From the NCBI GenBank assembly GCA_002730525.1, contig PCAK01000030.1:1-49182 (forward strand): DNA of 49,182 nucleotides, read 5' to 3'. The DNA is from Acidobacteriota bacterium (lineage in GTDB: Bacteria > Acidobacteriota > Vicinamibacteria > Vicinamibacterales > UBA823). Below, piece by piece: positions 32,207-41,584 of this stretch. The translations under genes and the position numbers were made by a program. The notes below the pieces were generated by a model, which saw nothing but the letters and a program-made list of their open reading frames with translations, had not been told where the DNA came from and ran no database searches. Position 1 is the stretch's first letter. Every line of letters starts with the position of its first letter.

Positions 32207-34285
32207 CTATGACGTCGCGGCCGGCTCCTTCTCGGTCTTGCTGCCGAGCCCCTGGATCTGGATGACCGGCTCGGGCGGGGTCTCGCCGAGTATGTGCTGC
32301 CGGTACAGGGCCGCCATCCGCTCATCCTCGGGGCTCGGCTGCCGCTGGTCGGCACGTGCCTGCAGCTTCTCTTCGCGCGCCGTCTTCGCGATCCCCTGAT
32401 CGTCCAGGTCGGTCTGACGCCCCGTGGCGACCGCCACGGGGTCGAGCATCAAGCTGTGCGCGGTCGTCGCCAGTGCCACGTCGTTGCCACCCGCGAAGAT
32501 CTCGTGACGCCCCTTCTCCTCGTACCACTTGGTCAACGTGGCGGTCATGTGCATCTTCTCGATAATGTTCCGCCAGCCGATGCCGGTGTTGTAGGCGCAG
32601 AACGAAATCTCGCCTTCCTGCGTCGCGTACGGAATGATGCAGCGCTCGGTGCGGCGGAAATCGTAGTTGAAGAGATCCTGGAACCACATCCCGGCAATGA
32701 ACAGGAAGTTCCAGCGATCCGACCGCCGCTTCGCGATGTCGGCCTGGGTCCGGTCCCCCGTCACCTTGCCGTAGTCGTGACCGCTGGCGCCGAAGGTCTT
32801 GTCGAACTTCCTCATCAAGTCGACCAGCTTGAAGTGCGTCGGCGCCTGGAACGGATCGTAGTTCCGCATCAAGGCCAGCGCCATCCCCACGACCGACAGG
32901 AACCGCCCGCGCGCCGCATCGTTGATCCGCGCGATGTCCTTCGACAGCCGGTCGGCCTTCAGGAACGCAGTCACCGGCACCGATTCCTTCGTCTCCTTGT
33001 CGACCATCACGGCCATGCCGATGCCGCAGTTGGGGTGACACCCGCAGTTGAGCTGCCCCCAGTCGCCCGTCGGCCCATGCACGAGGTCGGCCCAGTCGGT
33101 GAACGTGCCCATGAACGAGATCGGAAACCAGTCACGCACCGGCTCACCGATGTTCGTCTGGCGCTTCACGTCCTGCGCCAGATGCGACAGCGTGTAGCGT
33201 TGGGCGTGGCGCCGCTCGTCGGTGATCTCCTCGTCGCGGCCGGTAAACGAGACGGGCTGGAACGACAGGAAGTTGATCTTCTTCGGATTGTCCAGCGCGA
33301 ACTCGACGACGCGACCGACCTGCTCGTTGTTCACGCCGTTGAGGATCGTGATGACGGGCACGATGTCGACACCGGCCTTGTGCAGGTTTTCGATCGCCTG
33401 CAGCTTCACGTCGAACAGGTTGCCGACTGCACGATGCGAATTGGCCTCGTTGCCGATCCCATCGAACTGCAGATACACATACCGCAGGCCGGCATCGGCG
33501 GCGGCCTGCGCAAACTCGGGTCGCCTGGCGAACTCGATACCGTTGGTCGCCGCCTGGACGCTGTTGAAGCCGACCTTGCGCGCGTAGCGGACCGCGTCGA
33601 GGAAGTTCGGCGACAACGTCGGCTCGCCGCCGGAGAATTGGACCGACATCTGCCGCTTCGGCTTGATCGAGATCGCGTTGTCGAGCAGCGTTTTGATCTC
33701 GTCCCAGTCGAGTTCGTGCACAAAACCGACCTGGTTGGCGTCCGTGAAACACGGATCGCACATCATGTTGCACCGGTTGGTCAGATCGATTGTCAGCACG
33801 GCCCCGCGGCCGTACTTGAGCGTGCTGCTGCCATGGTTGTGCAGCTTCTCGTCGTTGTGCGCGCAGATGTCGCTGCCCGGAAACGTCTCCTCGAGGTGGC
33901 GGAAGAACGCCGGGTCGTTTGACATGACGTCTTCGAAGTGCCCGTGTTCGGGGCAATCCTTGACTATCATGATCTTGCCGTCGCGCTCGAGAATCGTGGC
34001 CTTGATCTCGCCGACCTTCTCGTGCAGCAGGATCTCGTAGTCCTGCTTGCCGTCGACGATCGCCTGTCGGGCTTCGCGGACACAGACCGGGCAGAGCGAA
34101 TCGGTCTCCCGCGGCCAGCCCAACGGCGGCTTCACCTTCTCGTGCGACTTCAGCAGCGGCTTGTCGGACCAGTTCGGCGTGAACGACGGGTTCTGCCTGA
34201 TCTGGTTCAGCGCGTCGAACGCCCCCCAGGCGGCCGAGGCCGCGTAGGTCATCGCCTTCTCGACGTACTTGATCGGCTTGTGCAT
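32207..34285 (-). CDS. Tes-like radical SAM enzyme, candidate membrane-spanning lipid synthase
   Basis: The 692-residue protein has the radical SAM cluster CNMMCDPC (C172, C176, C179) with FSGGEPTL (217-224). Around it is a layout like tetraether lipid synthase (Tes): an N-terminal metal site LCPVC and DCPEHG (C65, C68, C111), a second group NCGCHPNC (C414, C416, C420), and a late pair in TERCIIPYA and ISFCAYNTG (C549, C563). Tes joins two lipid tails by a carbon-carbon bond, and related bacterial enzymes are thought to make membrane-spanning lipids in some Acidobacteriota. The archaeal CPxDCGxC stretch before the radical SAM motif is not seen; only C141 lies there. The substrate is therefore inferred. 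AGGAGAGGGC supports the ATG. Confidence 0.72.
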   Translation of the reverse strand: MHKPIKYVEKAMTYAASAAWGAFDALNQIRQNPSFTPNWSDKPLLKSHEKVKPPLGWPRETDSLCPVCVREARQAIVDGKQDYEILLHEKVGEIKATILERDGKIMIVKDCPEHGHFEDVMSNDPAFFRHLEETFPGSDICAHNDEKLHNHGSSTLKYGRGAVLTIDLTNRCNMMCDPCFTDANQVGFVHELDWDEIKTLLDNAISIKPKRQMSVQFSGGEPTLSPNFLDAVRYARKVGFNSVQAATNGIEFARRPEFAQAAADAGLRYVYLQFDGIGNEANSHRAVGNLFDVKLQAIENLHKAGVDIVPVITILNGVNNEQVGRVVEFALDNPKKINFLSFQPVSFTGRDEEITDERRHAQRYTLSHLAQDVKRQTNIGEPVRDWFPISFMGTFTDWADLVHGPTGDWGQLNCGCHPNCGIGMAVMVDKETKESVPVTAFLKADRLSKDIARINDAARGRFLSVVGMALALMRNYDPFQAPTHFKLVDLMRKFDKTFGASGHDYGKVTGDRTQADIAKRRSDRWNFLFIAGMWFQDLFNYDFRRTERCIIPYATQEGEISFCAYNTGIGWRNIIEKMHMTATLTKWYEEKGRHEIFAGGNDVALATTAHSLMLDPVAVATGRQTDLDDQGIAKTAREEKLQARADQRQPSPEDERMAALYRQHILGETPPEPVIQIQGLGSKTEKEPAATS

Positions 34286-36930: not shown

Positions 36931-37034
36931 GTATGGCTCCGTCCCCTTGGATGTCTCGCTTGCCGAGCATCCGGCCGCGCACCATGCTACTACCTACGAC
37001 GTCGGATACGAGCGGAACGCCTCGTCCCGGCAGG

Positions 37035-38549
37035 TCACCACGACCTCGTCCAGGCGAAGTAGCGTGTGAACCACTTCCGCACGGTGGGCGTCAGCAGCGT
37101 TCGACGGTAGGCGTCGCCAGCCTTCTTCAACGCCTCCCCTTGCGTCGGGTACGGGTGAATCGTCGCGGACAGATCGGTCAAGCCGCCGCCCTGCGTGACG
37201 ACGTAGGCGGCCTCGCCGATCATCTCGCCCGCATGTGGCGCCACGATCGTGCATCCCAGCAATCGGCCTCGATCGTGGTGGACCCGGACAAAACCGTCGG
37301 TCTCCTCGTCGAGGATGGCGCGATCGACGTCGGCCAGCTGCACCGTCAGCGTGTCGACCCGACGGCCCCGCTCTCGCGCCTCGCGCTCGTAGAGGCCGAC
37401 GTGCGCAATCTCCGGGTCGGTGTAGGTGCACCACGGAATCACCAGCGCGCTCGCCCGCTTCCGGCCATGGAACAGCGCGTTCTGGATGACGACCCGCGCC
37501 ATCGCATCGGCCGCGTGCGTGAACTTGAACGCAGAGCAGACATCGCCCGCCGCATAGATCCGACGGTTCGACGTCCGCAGACGATCGTCGACCTCGACAC
37601 CCCGCCGCCCGAAAGCGACGCCCGCCGCCCCCAGGTCGAGCGTTTCGACGTTCGGCGCCCGACCCGCCGCCACGAGCAGGCGATCGCCGACGACCTGACC
37701 GGTCTCGCCGCCCCGGTCGAACGTCACGGTCACCCCATCCGGCCCTTCGCGGACCTCCTGCGGTCGCACGTCCAGCTGCAGCGTCACCCCATCCTGCTCG
37801 AGCGCCTGGGAGACGATCGCGGCGGCGTCGCCATCCTCGCGCAGCAGCACCTGGGACGCCATGTCGAGGAGCGTCACCTGGCTACCGAAGCGGGCGAAGG
37901 CCTGCGCCATCTCACAGCCGATCGGTCCGCCGCCGATGATGAGCAGGCGGCGCGGCAGTTCGGTGAGCCAGAACAGCGTCTCGTTCGTCAGGAAAGAGGT
38001 CTCGGCGAGCCCCGGGATGGGCGGCGCAACCGCGCGCGCACCCGTGGCAATGACGGCCCGCTTGAATCGCAGCGTCCGGCCGTCCACGACGATCCCTCGA
38101 GGCCCGGTGAACCGGGCCTCCCCGAAGAAGACGTCGATGCCCAGGTCGGCGAATCGGCGCGCGGAGTCGTTCGGGCTGATGTCGGCGCGGCGGCGGCGCA
38201 TCCGCCGCATCACGCGATCGAAATCGACCTCGGGCGCCGTGACCCGCACCCCCAACGCGTCGCCCTTCCGCGCCTCACCGATCAGGCGGGCCGCCCGGAG
38301 CAGCCCCTTGGACGGCACACACCCGACATTCAGGCAGTCACCGCCCATGAGCGCGCGCTCGACGAGCGCGACGCGCGCGCCCAGGCCCGCCGCGCCGGCG
38401 GCGCTCACGAGCCCGGCCGTGCCGGCGCCGATCACGACCAGGTCGTAGACGCCGGCGCCAGCCGGATTCTTCCAATCCTCGGGCCGCACGTGGGACAGCA
38501 GCTCCCGGTTGGCGTCGTCGAGCGGCTGGACGAGCGATTCAGCTTCCAT
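37035..38549 (-). CDS. Mercuric-reductase-like FAD disulfide oxidoreductase
   Basis: The 504-residue flavoprotein has the class I disulfide oxidoreductase layout: an FAD-binding VVIGAGTAGLVSA (38-50), the redox pair GDCLNVGCVPSK (C72, C77), an NAD(P)-binding LLIIGGGPIGCE, a second FAD site IYAAGDVC, and the dimer end HPYPTQGEAL with the catalytic histidine. It lacks the heavy-metal-binding N-terminal domain and the C-terminal cysteine pair of true MerA, so mercury reduction is unlikely. Proteins like this are common in bacteria with unknown substrate. The glycosyltransferase gene lies 36 bases upstream on the same strand, so they may be co-transcribed. Confidence 0.85.
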   Translation of the reverse strand: MEAESLVQPLDDANRELLSHVRPEDWKNPAGAGVYDLVVIGAGTAGLVSAAGAAGLGARVALVERALMGGDCLNVGCVPSKGLLRAARLIGEARKGDALGVRVTAPEVDFDRVMRRMRRRRADISPNDSARRFADLGIDVFFGEARFTGPRGIVVDGRTLRFKRAVIATGARAVAPPIPGLAETSFLTNETLFWLTELPRRLLIIGGGPIGCEMAQAFARFGSQVTLLDMASQVLLREDGDAAAIVSQALEQDGVTLQLDVRPQEVREGPDGVTVTFDRGGETGQVVGDRLLVAAGRAPNVETLDLGAAGVAFGRRGVEVDDRLRTSNRRIYAAGDVCSAFKFTHAADAMARVVIQNALFHGRKRASALVIPWCTYTDPEIAHVGLYEREARERGRRVDTLTVQLADVDRAILDEETDGFVRVHHDRGRLLGCTIVAPHAGEMIGEAAYVVTQGGGLTDLSATIHPYPTQGEALKKAGDAYRRTLLTPTVRKWFTRYFAWTRSW

Positions 38550-38585
38550 GCGTGCGTCACTCCGGTGGACGGTCTCCGAGGCAGT

Positions 38586-39311
38586 TCAGGTCTGCCGCGA
38601 CGACGGTCGCAGCGCGTCGCGGCCGTAGTACAGACGGGCGAGCCGCGCCGGGGCCACGCCGGCAAGATAGAGCGTGACGAGCCCGATGTTCTTGACGCTC
38701 CGCCGGGCCCATCCGTCACGCCGCCATCGCCGCGCCGAGACCCGGACGGGCATAGAAGAGTGCCAGAGCCGCCCCACCCGCCTGAGCCGGCGGACCAAGT
38801 CGACATCCTCCATCAGCGGCCAATCCCGGTAACCACGGACCGACTCGAAGGCCTCGCGCCGCACGAAGAGCGCCTGGTCGCCGTAGGGCAGGTCGAGCCA
38901 GCGGACCCGCCACCTCACGCCGCGCTCGAGGAGTCGCGCCTGCCAGGCGGGTGTCTCCAGCGCGAACCGGAAACTGCCCCCGACCACGCCGGCCGTCGCA
39001 TCGGCACGGGCGATCTCACCGTCCCAACCCGGGGACAGCCGTGTGTCGGCGTGGACGAAGATCAACCAGCGGCCACGCGCCAGACTGGCCCCGTGATTCA
39101 TCTGCCGGCCGCGGCCTGGCAGCGAAGCGCTCCAGCGAACCTCGGTGAACCGGTCACGGAGCGGGCCGAGCGCCGGGTCGGCACCCCCGTCGACCACGAT
39201 GACCTCGAGCCCCGGCGCGTCGGTCGTCGGCGGCAGCGCGTCGAGCAGCGACTCGAGTTCGGCCGCATCGTCGAGCACCGGCACAACGAGCGAGACGAAC
39301 GGATCGTTCAT
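38586..39311 (-). CDS. Family 2 glycosyltransferase, TIGR04283-like
   Basis: The 241-residue GT-A-fold enzyme starts VSLVVPVLDDAAELESLL; the substrate metal site is in FVHADTRLSPGWD, and LPGRGRQMNHGA and LMEDVDLVRRL are further family marks. These stretches match the rSAM/selenodomain-associated transferase group (TIGR04283), some members of which are linked to arsenosugar synthesis. No arsenic genes are seen here, so this remains a hint. The ATG overlaps the esterase stop as ATGA, so the two are translationally coupled. Confidence 0.83.
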   Translation of the reverse strand: MNDPFVSLVVPVLDDAAELESLLDALPPTTDAPGLEVIVVDGGADPALGPLRDRFTEVRWSASLPGRGRQMNHGASLARGRWLIFVHADTRLSPGWDGEIARADATAGVVGGSFRFALETPAWQARLLERGVRWRVRWLDLPYGDQALFVRREAFESVRGYRDWPLMEDVDLVRRLRRVGRLWHSSMPVRVSARRWRRDGWARRSVKNIGLVTLYLAGVAPARLARLYYGRDALRPSSRQT

Positions 39312-39985
39312 GCACCGGGCTCCAGCTCGAGCAGTTCCACGACGCGGCGCCAGATCAGTTCGAGGCTGTCGTGCAGTTGATGGTCGTCGTCGAGCAGGTG
39401 CAGTTCGACTGCCGCGCGCCCGCGCGAAAACCGCTGGACCATTGCGGGATCGACCGCGTCGTCGCGACGCCCCTGGAAGATGACGGTCGGCGGCGCGTCA
39501 CTGTCCTGGACCGCAAACGAGTCGTAGCCTGCGGCATCCGAATACAGCTCGTAGCCAACGCGCAGCGTCTCTCCGAACGCATGGTGGAAGACGTCCAGGT
39601 ACCCGGCGTCACGCCAACGATCGATGCCGTCGGCGTCGAGATCGCCCATCCGGCGGTTCGCCCCGAAATCCAGCGCCGGGGCCAGCAAGACCAACCGTTC
39701 GATCGGCGTGCGGCGCGCCGCGGCCGCCGACTGTCGCGCTGCGGCGTGCCAGGCCACGAAGCCCCCCAGGCTGGATCCGATCAGTACGACCGGACCGGAT
39801 GGCAGGGCGGCAATGGCATCGTCGACCTGCCCAATCATCCGCGAGGTCGTCAGACCGTGGAAGTCGGGCTGGTTGAAGTCCGGGCAGTGCAGGGATAGAC
39901 CGAACGGCGCGAGGCGCTCGGCCAGCCACGCCGCCTTCGTCGAACCGGCGGACGACGCGAAGCCGTGCAGATAGAACAGGTGCAT
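39308..39985 (-). CDS. YqiA-like alpha/beta-hydrolase esterase
   Basis: The 225-residue protein starts MHLFYLHGFASSAGSTKA, as in YqiA/UPF0227 esterases. The nucleophile is S72 in GSSLGG, the acid is probably D174 or D175 in GRRDDAVDP, and the base is H201 in DDDHQLHDS. These enzymes hydrolyse short acyl esters; the natural substrate is unknown. It is the first gene of a tightly packed row with the glycosyltransferase and the flavoprotein. Confidence 0.85.
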   Translation of the reverse strand: MHLFYLHGFASSAGSTKAAWLAERLAPFGLSLHCPDFNQPDFHGLTTSRMIGQVDDAIAALPSGPVVLIGSSLGGFVAWHAAARQSAAAARRTPIERLVLLAPALDFGANRRMGDLDADGIDRWRDAGYLDVFHHAFGETLRVGYELYSDAAGYDSFAVQDSDAPPTVIFQGRRDDAVDPAMVQRFSRGRAAVELHLLDDDHQLHDSLELIWRRVVELLELEPGA

Positions 39986-40544: not shown

Positions 40545-40553
40545 TGTTATAAT
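40545..40553 (+). promoter_or_regulatory. Consensus extended -10 promoter, near-leaderless
   Basis: TGT-TATAAT is a perfect extended -10 element. RNA would start near 40560, five bases before the ATG at 40565, leaving no room for a ribosome site. A TTGTAT at 40528-40533 is only 14 bases away and is a poor -35. Confidence 0.55.
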
Positions 40554-40564
40554 TGCGAAGATCG

Positions 40565-41584
40565 ATGCGCACTCTCAAGAAACTCCACCGGAACGCGCGC
40601 GCCGTGCGCGAGTTCGCGCGGGGGCTCGTCCACACCGCCCACCCGTTGCTCGTCCACATGGTGCCGATGCGCCGCTGCAACATCGACTGCGGCTACTGCA
40701 ACGAGTACGACAAGGTGTCGGAGCCGGTTCCGCTCGACACGATGCTCAGCCGGCTCGACCGGTTGTCCGCGCTGGGCAGCTCCGTCGTCGCCATGAGCGG
40801 CGGCGAGCCGATGATGCACCCCGACCTCGACACGATCCTCGGCGCCGTGCGCGCCCGCGGCATGATGGCTGGGCTCATCACGAACGGGTACTACCTGTCG
40901 CCCAAACGGATCGCGGCGCTGAACGACGCGGGCCTCGACTTTCTCCAGATCAGCATCGACAACATCAAGCCTGATGAGGTGTCAAAGAAGAGTCTCCGCT
41001 TGCTCGACAAGAAGCTCGAGGGACTTCGTGATCACGCCGAGTTCGACGTCAACATCAACTCGGTCGTGGGCGGCGGCGTGAAGAACCCGGAGGACGCCCG
41101 GACCATCACGAGACGGGCGCGCGAACTCGGCTTCTCGACGTCGGTCGGCATCATTCACGACGGATCGGGCCGCCTGAAGCCGCTCGGCCCCACCGAACGA
41201 GCCGTCTTCGACGACGTCTCGGCACGCGTCAGCGGCGCCCGGCAGGTGGCCAAGAACCTCTACTCGGGCATCTCCGGGTTCCAGGACAACCTCGTCGAGG
41301 GCCGCCCGAATGCCTGGCGCTGCCGCGCCGGGGCCCGCTACCTGTATATCTGCGAATTCGGCCTCGTGCACTACTGCTCGCAGCAGCGCGGGGAGCCGGC
41401 GATCCCGCTCGACCAGTACACGGTGGCTGACGTAAGACGGGAGTTCCTGAAGCCGAAGGACTGCGCGCCCTTCTGCACGATCGGCTGTGTGCACCGCGTC
41501 TCGACGATGGATTTCTGGCGAAAACCGCAGATCCCGCCGACCCGGACCCCCACCGTCAAGGGCTCGGTGGAACCGGCCTCGTAG
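40565..41584 (+). CDS. Radical SAM protein with C-terminal cysteine-rich region
   Basis: The 339-residue protein has the radical SAM motif CNIDCGYC (C38, C42, C45) and MSGGEPMMHPD. In the last third are further cysteines (WRCRAGARYLYICEFG, HYCSQQRG, KDCAPFCTIGCVHR) that could hold an extra iron-sulfur cluster as in SPASM or twitch domains. The layout resembles HpnH-like and peptide-modifying radical SAM proteins, but no small precursor peptide is next to it and no substrate can be named. ATG at 40565 is used; a TTG at 40553 lies on the -10 box itself and is unlikely. Confidence 0.83.
   Translation: MRTLKKLHRNARAVREFARGLVHTAHPLLVHMVPMRRCNIDCGYCNEYDKVSEPVPLDTMLSRLDRLSALGSSVVAMSGGEPMMHPDLDTILGAVRARGMMAGLITNGYYLSPKRIAALNDAGLDFLQISIDNIKPDEVSKKSLRLLDKKLEGLRDHAEFDVNINSVVGGGVKNPEDARTITRRARELGFSTSVGIIHDGSGRLKPLGPTERAVFDDVSARVSGARQVAKNLYSGISGFQDNLVEGRPNAWRCRAGARYLYICEFGLVHYCSQQRGEPAIPLDQYTVADVRREFLKPKDCAPFCTIGCVHRVSTMDFWRKPQIPPTRTPTVKGSVEPAS

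Follow-up and report, generated by a model that had tools for sequence, protein, structure and literature searches.

Here, we describe a gene from the window (the whole 49,182-nucleotide stretch of acidobacterial DNA that was analyzed) whose product is probably the iso-diabolic acid synthase of Acidobacteriota, an enzyme that joins two iso-C15 acyl tails in membrane glycerolipids. In many Acidobacteriota, iso-diabolic acid reaches 20-40% of total fatty acids, and brGDGTs are built from it; these soil lipids serve as proxies for the temperature and pH of the past. To our knowledge, no acidobacterial tail-coupling enzyme has been demonstrated so far. The protein belongs to a distinct, widespread acidobacterial subfamily of the Tes type in which one of three iron-sulfur clusters is lost, and we give a slightly better than even chance to the wider statement that this subfamily is the iso-diabolic acid synthase and performs an early step toward brGDGTs. 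If the synthase reading is true, a single, near-universal and highly conserved gene would serve as a genomic marker for iso-diabolic acid producers, and an early step toward the soil brGDGTs of palaeothermometry would be in hand.

The gene lies on the minus strand, reads from an ATG at position 34285 to a stop at 32207 and encodes 692 amino acids. The top NCBIfam model for the protein is the tetraether synthase Tes, NF045702 (324 bits, E 1e-96), at a score below the curated equivalog cut-off of 450 bits; complete genes of the window type reach about 290-350 bits. A phmmer search aligned the protein over its full length with MJ0619 (7TOL/7TOM; E 1e-64, 31% identity), the sole solved structure with a full-length relationship to it. 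Two domains are recognized, the HMPTM zinc ribbon PF23545 (54.2 bits, cut-off 27) and the radical SAM domain PF04055 (78.7 bits). The name of PF23545 (HMPTM, pterin dimethyltransferase) stems from an activity that the authors of the Tes structure later could not corroborate (PMC9433317). Judged from the sequence, the resemblance to Tes is far beyond chance, and the protein is a Tes-derived radical SAM enzyme whose mode of action is most likely that of Tes. We would not classify it as Tes itself, since the defining N-terminal cluster is missing and the score stays below the family cut-off. The window genome (3.3 Mb, 99% complete), which belongs to Vicinamibacterales, the order of Luteitalea and subdivision 6 of the Acidobacteriota, carries a single Tes-type gene, and the protein has 580 relatives in the genome collection. 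The positions of its features are given in Table 1.

Table 1. Features of the gene and its product, with window coordinates; residue numbers are those of the 692-residue protein unless MJ0619 is named.
Feature	Coordinates	Strand	Basis
Tes-derived radical SAM protein, 692 aa, candidate iso-diabolic acid synthase	32207..34285	-	ORF, NF045702, PDB 7TOL
N-terminal extension, residues 3-27, predicted amphipathic helix, not in archaeal Tes	34205..34279	-	AlphaFold2, pLDDT about 90
Rubredoxin-like/zinc-ribbon site C65, C68, C111, H114 (= MJ0619 C9, C12, C33, H36)	33944..34093	-	PF23545 and MJ0619 mapping
Site of the lost N-terminal [4Fe4S], residues 139-161: H143-x5-H149-x-H151-G-x-S154 ... G159-R160-G161	33803..33871	-	
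Radical SAM motif C172-x3-C176-x2-C179 (NRCNMMCDPC) = MJ0619 C98, C102, C105	33749..33772	-	PF04055
C414-x-C416-H-P-N-C420; C420 = MJ0619 C338, catalytic-cluster ligand	33026..33046	-	MJ0619 mapping
Helical cap, residues 443-524, matches the second-lipid-pocket region of Tes	32714..32959	-	position by homology
GMWFQDL, clade signature; M533 = MJ0619 Met439, labile ligand	32672..32692	-	Met 100/100
C549 and C563 (= MJ0619 C455, C470), other catalytic [4Fe4S] ligands, with Y553 (= Tyr459)	32597..32641	-	
C-terminal tail, residues 601-692, variable, mostly low-confidence	32210..32485	-	pLDDT mostly < 65 from residue 621

The MJ0619 chain was reconstructed from its PDB alignment, and all residue numbers of PMC9433317 that were checked matched the expected letter; the list of SAM-site and catalytic-cluster residues used for the comparison was taken from the same paper. 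The cysteine layout of Tes that the first-pass annotation had claimed is indeed present, as C65xxC68 ... C111PEH114G, C172xxxC176xxC179, C414xC416HPNC420 and a late F562CAYN. MJ0619 holds a rubredoxin-like site with C9, C12, C33 and H36 (PMC9433317), and among 100 homologs from the phylum the corresponding C65, C68 and C111 are invariant and H114 is found in 99. The three cysteines of the radical SAM motif, C172, C176 and C179, are likewise invariant, and nine SAM-site residues of MJ0619 (Y195, D199, V236, T238, Q268, S271, T273, R275, G145) are identical in the window protein. In MJ0619 the C-terminal [4Fe4S] cluster has a labile ligand, Met439, and the substrate carbon is held on a cluster sulfide (PMC9433317). 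The residues of this catalytic cluster that were checked, C338, C455, C470 and M439, together with Y459, all recur unchanged in the window protein, where C414, C416, C420, M533, C549, Y553 and C563 are invariant in 100/100 homologs. C414 and C416, which are invariant within the clade, are additional compared to MJ0619.

The N-terminal [4Fe4S] cluster of MJ0619 is coordinated by C73, C77, C80 and a histidine (PMC9433317). In the window protein, the three cysteines align with a gap or K, with H151 and with S154, and the region of the histidine aligns with K157, the Tes stretch CPxxCGxC being exchanged for H-x-x-x-x-x-H-x-H-G-x-S. The three cysteines and the histidine ligand are missing throughout the clade (100 homologs), while H149, H151, S154 and R160 are invariant in all 100 and H143 is found in 96. 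The alignment thus indicates that the N-terminal cluster is gone and that a new invariant HxHGxS motif occupies its place. The earlier suggestion of a different cluster set in this clade is therefore real. It was also correctly noted that CPxDCGxC is replaced and that C141 is the only cysteine left in the stretch. C141 was considered as a remnant ligand and ruled out: it aligns with no Tes ligand and is private to the window protein (1/100 homologs; 84 have an arginine there), and since the cluster ligands are lost across the whole clade, the idea of a retained ligand falls. The HxHGxS motif is perhaps another metal site, for which it is a candidate, and the loss of the cluster is perhaps an adaptation to aerobic life. 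If the synthase reading is true, Tes may be able to do without its N-terminal cluster, a point of relevance to the debated functions of the auxiliary clusters.

An AlphaFold2 model built with 57 homologs reached a mean pLDDT of 72 and a pTM of 0.78. The predicted fold matched 7TOM in Foldseek (E 4e-23) and in VIA-align (Z 22.1, 437 residues); the next VIA-align rows, belonging to MoaA (Z 14.6), covered the radical SAM core alone. The 437-residue match takes in the helical cap that in Tes bears the second lipid pocket, but the cluster loops have pLDDT values below 50, and therefore the cluster geometry cannot be read from the model. An active site lacking the long lipid channel, the other result that the first-pass annotation would have taken as a refutation, is addressed in part by this match of the cap. 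Within the core, conservation is lowest in the cap, with a mean top-residue frequency of 0.73 compared to 0.90-0.95 in the catalytic parts. The N-terminal helix has a hydrophobic moment of 0.42, a value not matched in 2000 shuffles (clade median 0.47), and this helix possibly associates with the membrane. At the other end of the protein, none of the 92 residues of the C-terminal tail is invariant.

A maximum-likelihood tree was calculated from 53 proteins, using the columns common to MJ0619 and rooted with other zinc-ribbon radical SAM proteins from the same genomes. All window-type sequences fall on one branch (support 100/100, stem of 1.22 changes per site), and this branch lies inside the Tes clade together with the full Tes proteins of the acidobacterial families f18 and f59 (100/100). 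A grouping outside Tes, against which the first-pass annotation had asked to be checked, was not seen. Since the clade sits inside bacterial Tes, the loss of the N-terminal cluster is derived. The nearest relatives in the tree, the full Tes proteins of some Acidobacteriota, have kept this cluster; they are probably the type found in 'Koribacter' and 'Solibacter', with 40-42% identity to the Tes of M. acetivorans. Two sister full-Tes types (L136 and L037) already have C414, and L136 also has C416 (FCSCHTNCG), so that the additional cysteines appear older than the loss of the cluster. L136 (G154, family f59) combines an intact N-terminal cluster with three traits of the window type, C414, C416 and FQD, and may by its sequence be a possible intermediate between full Tes and the window type. 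Within the window-type clade, the branching order tracks the organism groups, with Vicinamibacterales together and Terriglobia together, which points to vertical inheritance of the gene.

The gene is near-universal, with 60-90% identity, in Vicinamibacterales (SD6), Terriglobia (SD1/3) and apparently Blastocatellia (SD4). Among 60 relatives of the window genome, it was found at E 1e-20 in 43 of the 50 genomes of good quality, mostly at 76-89% identity and full length. A draw of 247 acidobacterial genomes contained 141 with a Tes-family gene at E 1e-40; full Tes above the NF045702 cut-off was found in 28 of the 247, and well over 100 had a Tes-family gene under the cut-off, mostly of the window type. 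Within this draw, the Tes-family gene was present in every genome of the families f23 (25/25; proteins with 90% identity to the one from Edaphobacter modestus), f35 (16/16) and f44 (5/5). A Tes-family gene was found in 0 of 21 genomes of Holophagaceae (family f37, assigned via the Holo_1154 FISH probe site, 13 genomes; probe from PMC8100337) and in 0 of 11 genomes of family f55, marked as Thermoanaerobaculaceae via the Acido-1162 probe site in two members, a site seen one more time, on a short contig from a different family (probe from PMC8100337). In the family of the window genome itself, the gene is absent from all five genomes of a small-genome genus (g4, G004-G008, 1.5-2.5 Mb), one of which is 97% complete, and we predict that these organisms are without iso-diabolic acid. 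In a survey of 46 strains from seven subdivisions, iso-diabolic acid was found in subdivisions 1, 3, 4 and 6 only (cited in PMC13274423). The distribution of the gene fits this published occurrence, and therefore the window-type gene is a good candidate for the iso-diabolic acid enzyme of Acidobacteriota; the match is at the level of classes and the gene is vertically inherited, so that it may reflect few independent events. Some further observations concern the collection itself. Many genomes of family f35 have second, diverged window-type copies with about 50% identity (for example L033/L034 in G245). The record CALQCC020000001.1 (L048), titled as a Bordetella parapertussis bin, contains the same acidobacterial gene as G230, without any difference, and hence the title is probably wrong. 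Plasmid records yielded only distant relatives, haloarchaeal and other, with 25-31% identity.

Evidence at the level of strains comes from eight named records with the gene, whose whole genomes were searched. Each has one Tes-family gene, and full Tes was found in 0 of these 8 genomes. In Edaphobacter modestus DSM 18101, where iso-diabolic acid amounts to 30.4% (PMC11354219), the sole Tes-family gene is of the window type. E. aggregans, with 26.4% iso-diabolic acid, reportedly has one Tes homolog, which shares 32% identity with the archaeal protein (PMC8941075), close to the 31% between the window protein and MJ0619. Zeng et al. 2022 proposed a role of the acidobacterial Tes homolog in brGDGT synthesis, and it was argued that the iso terminus of the fatty acid and the terminus of the archaeal tail coupled by Tes are chemically identical (PMC8941075). 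The idea of an acidobacterial Tes homolog is thus already published; new are the loss of the cluster, the extent of the clade and the fit to iso-diabolic acid. The link to iso-diabolic acid that the first reading of the window had drawn gains strength from the phyletic distribution and from E. modestus, the function itself being what we infer.

The window protein has in common with archaeal Tes/GDGT-MAS (MJ0619, 7TOL, 7TOM; Zeng 2022, Lloyd 2022) the zinc ribbon/rubredoxin site, the radical SAM core, the C-terminal catalytic cluster with its labile methionine, an alignment over the full length and the fold. It differs from archaeal Tes in the lost ligands of the N-terminal cluster, the extra C414 and C416, the H149-x-H151 pair, the added N-terminal amphipathic helix and C-terminal tail, and presumably in its substrate, which would be bacterial fatty-acid lipids. 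We infer substrate, reaction and membrane contact as follows. A membrane-associated radical SAM enzyme would link two iso-C15 acyl chains through their terminal carbons. As in the homologous MJ0619, a hydrophobic channel would take up one acyl tail and end at the 5'-deoxyadenosyl radical, which would be generated at the CX3CX2C cluster. After release of Met533, the C-terminal [4Fe4S] cluster (C420, C549, C563) would capture the resulting carbon radical as a C-S bond, and the C-C bond would be completed once a second hydrogen has been abstracted, this time from the other tail. The product would be ester-bound iso-diabolic acid. No fused ether-forming PlsA/Ger protein was found in the window genome, where the only two PF01869 matches belong, as separate subunits, to a benzoyl-CoA-reductase-like operon, and therefore an ester-bound product is the simplest prediction.

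Other radical SAM enzymes also act on membrane-spanning lipids. The GMGT synthase Gms and the ring synthase GrsA belong to other subfamilies, Gms with a SPASM domain and GrsA without an auxiliary cluster (PMC11186832). Mss of Thermotoga and Thermoanaerobacter (Sahonero-Canavesi 2022) shares with the window type the presumed product class, (iso-)diabolic acid. Thermotoga maritima, from which a validated Mss comes, gave no match to the Tes family at E 1e-40, and Mss therefore appears to be another family, a point against the synthase reading. It may be an Mss-type enzyme that makes the iso-diabolic acid of Acidobacteriota, with the 692-residue protein acting on lipids in a different way, for example by a cross-link within a membrane-spanning lipid that is already formed or by a side-chain modification. 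Mss is, according to later papers that cite the work on it, the sole bacterial enzyme with demonstrated coupling activity, and the three genomes in which a full Tes adjoins the window-type gene or lies within about 6 kb of it would suit two lipid steps. However, of 97 acidobacterial MAGs from the Black Sea, 11 were reported to contain homologs of Mss (PMC11868695), a much lower frequency than that of iso-diabolic acid, which is near-universal in subdivisions 1, 3, 4 and 6, whereas the window-type gene is near-universal in these subdivisions and its product retains all catalytic coupling residues. We therefore regard an Mss-type enzyme as the source of this acid as unlikely.

Quite improbable, in our view, is a Tes paralog that couples other chains, for example ether-linked dialkyl glycerols directly to brGDGTs or the sn-1 and sn-2 chains into a macrocycle, with iso-diabolic acid only a part of its products. 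MJ0619 itself yields both a macrocycle and a tetraether (PMC9433317), S. usitatus has two Tes homologs and brGDGTs without free iso-diabolic acid (PMC10087280), and the weak conservation of the lipid-holding cap would fit other chains, but the window genome is without a fused PlsA/Ger and most iso-diabolic acid producers have no or little brGDGT (PMC13274423). The protein might also have left lipid chemistry for another substrate, as may be the case for other zinc-ribbon radical SAM proteins (TrsS, or the pterin role once ascribed to MJ0619). The score below the Tes cut-off (324 vs 450 bits), the long stem branch and the lost cluster speak for such a departure. Against it stand the retained methionine ligand, three cluster cysteines and tyrosine, the added amphipathic N-terminus and a nearest fold that is Tes by far; the pterin role was itself not corroborated (PMC9433317). 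A function outside lipid chemistry is thus very improbable, and the synthesis of iso-diabolic acid remains the reading that we prefer.

The surroundings of the gene were considered as a clue to its function and dropped. No conserved neighborhood of lipid genes was found around it in the window or in the flanked loci, which speaks against the synthase reading; the neighbors in the window encode MoaA, a DUF547 protein and MsrPQ. Among about 100 loci with flanks of 5 kb, mostly from Terriglobia, the only recurrent neighbor, present in 22, is a divergent gene for a putative epoxyqueuosine reductase. Where window-type and full Tes genes are paired, it looks as if two coupling enzymes were working together. 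On contig 84 of G346 (L144, 55862-59532) the window-type gene stands directly before full Tes on the same strand, with about 0.6 kb between the matched parts, and in G128 and G172 (L028, L029) the distance is about 4-6 kb. The window holds another radical SAM protein on the plus strand (40553-41584, 343 aa), which scores above the cut-off of no curated family, and a plus-strand open frame of 815 aa (36933-39380) without a Pfam or NCBIfam match that is overlapped by a frame of 504 aa on the opposite strand. Elsewhere in the window genome, the benzoyl-CoA-reductase-like operon comprises four genes (two HGD-D, two BcrAD_BadFG; L151, G000 contig 15, 1061-5613) beside a subunit of the Rnf/Nqr type, and its sequence suggests anaerobic aromatic metabolism.
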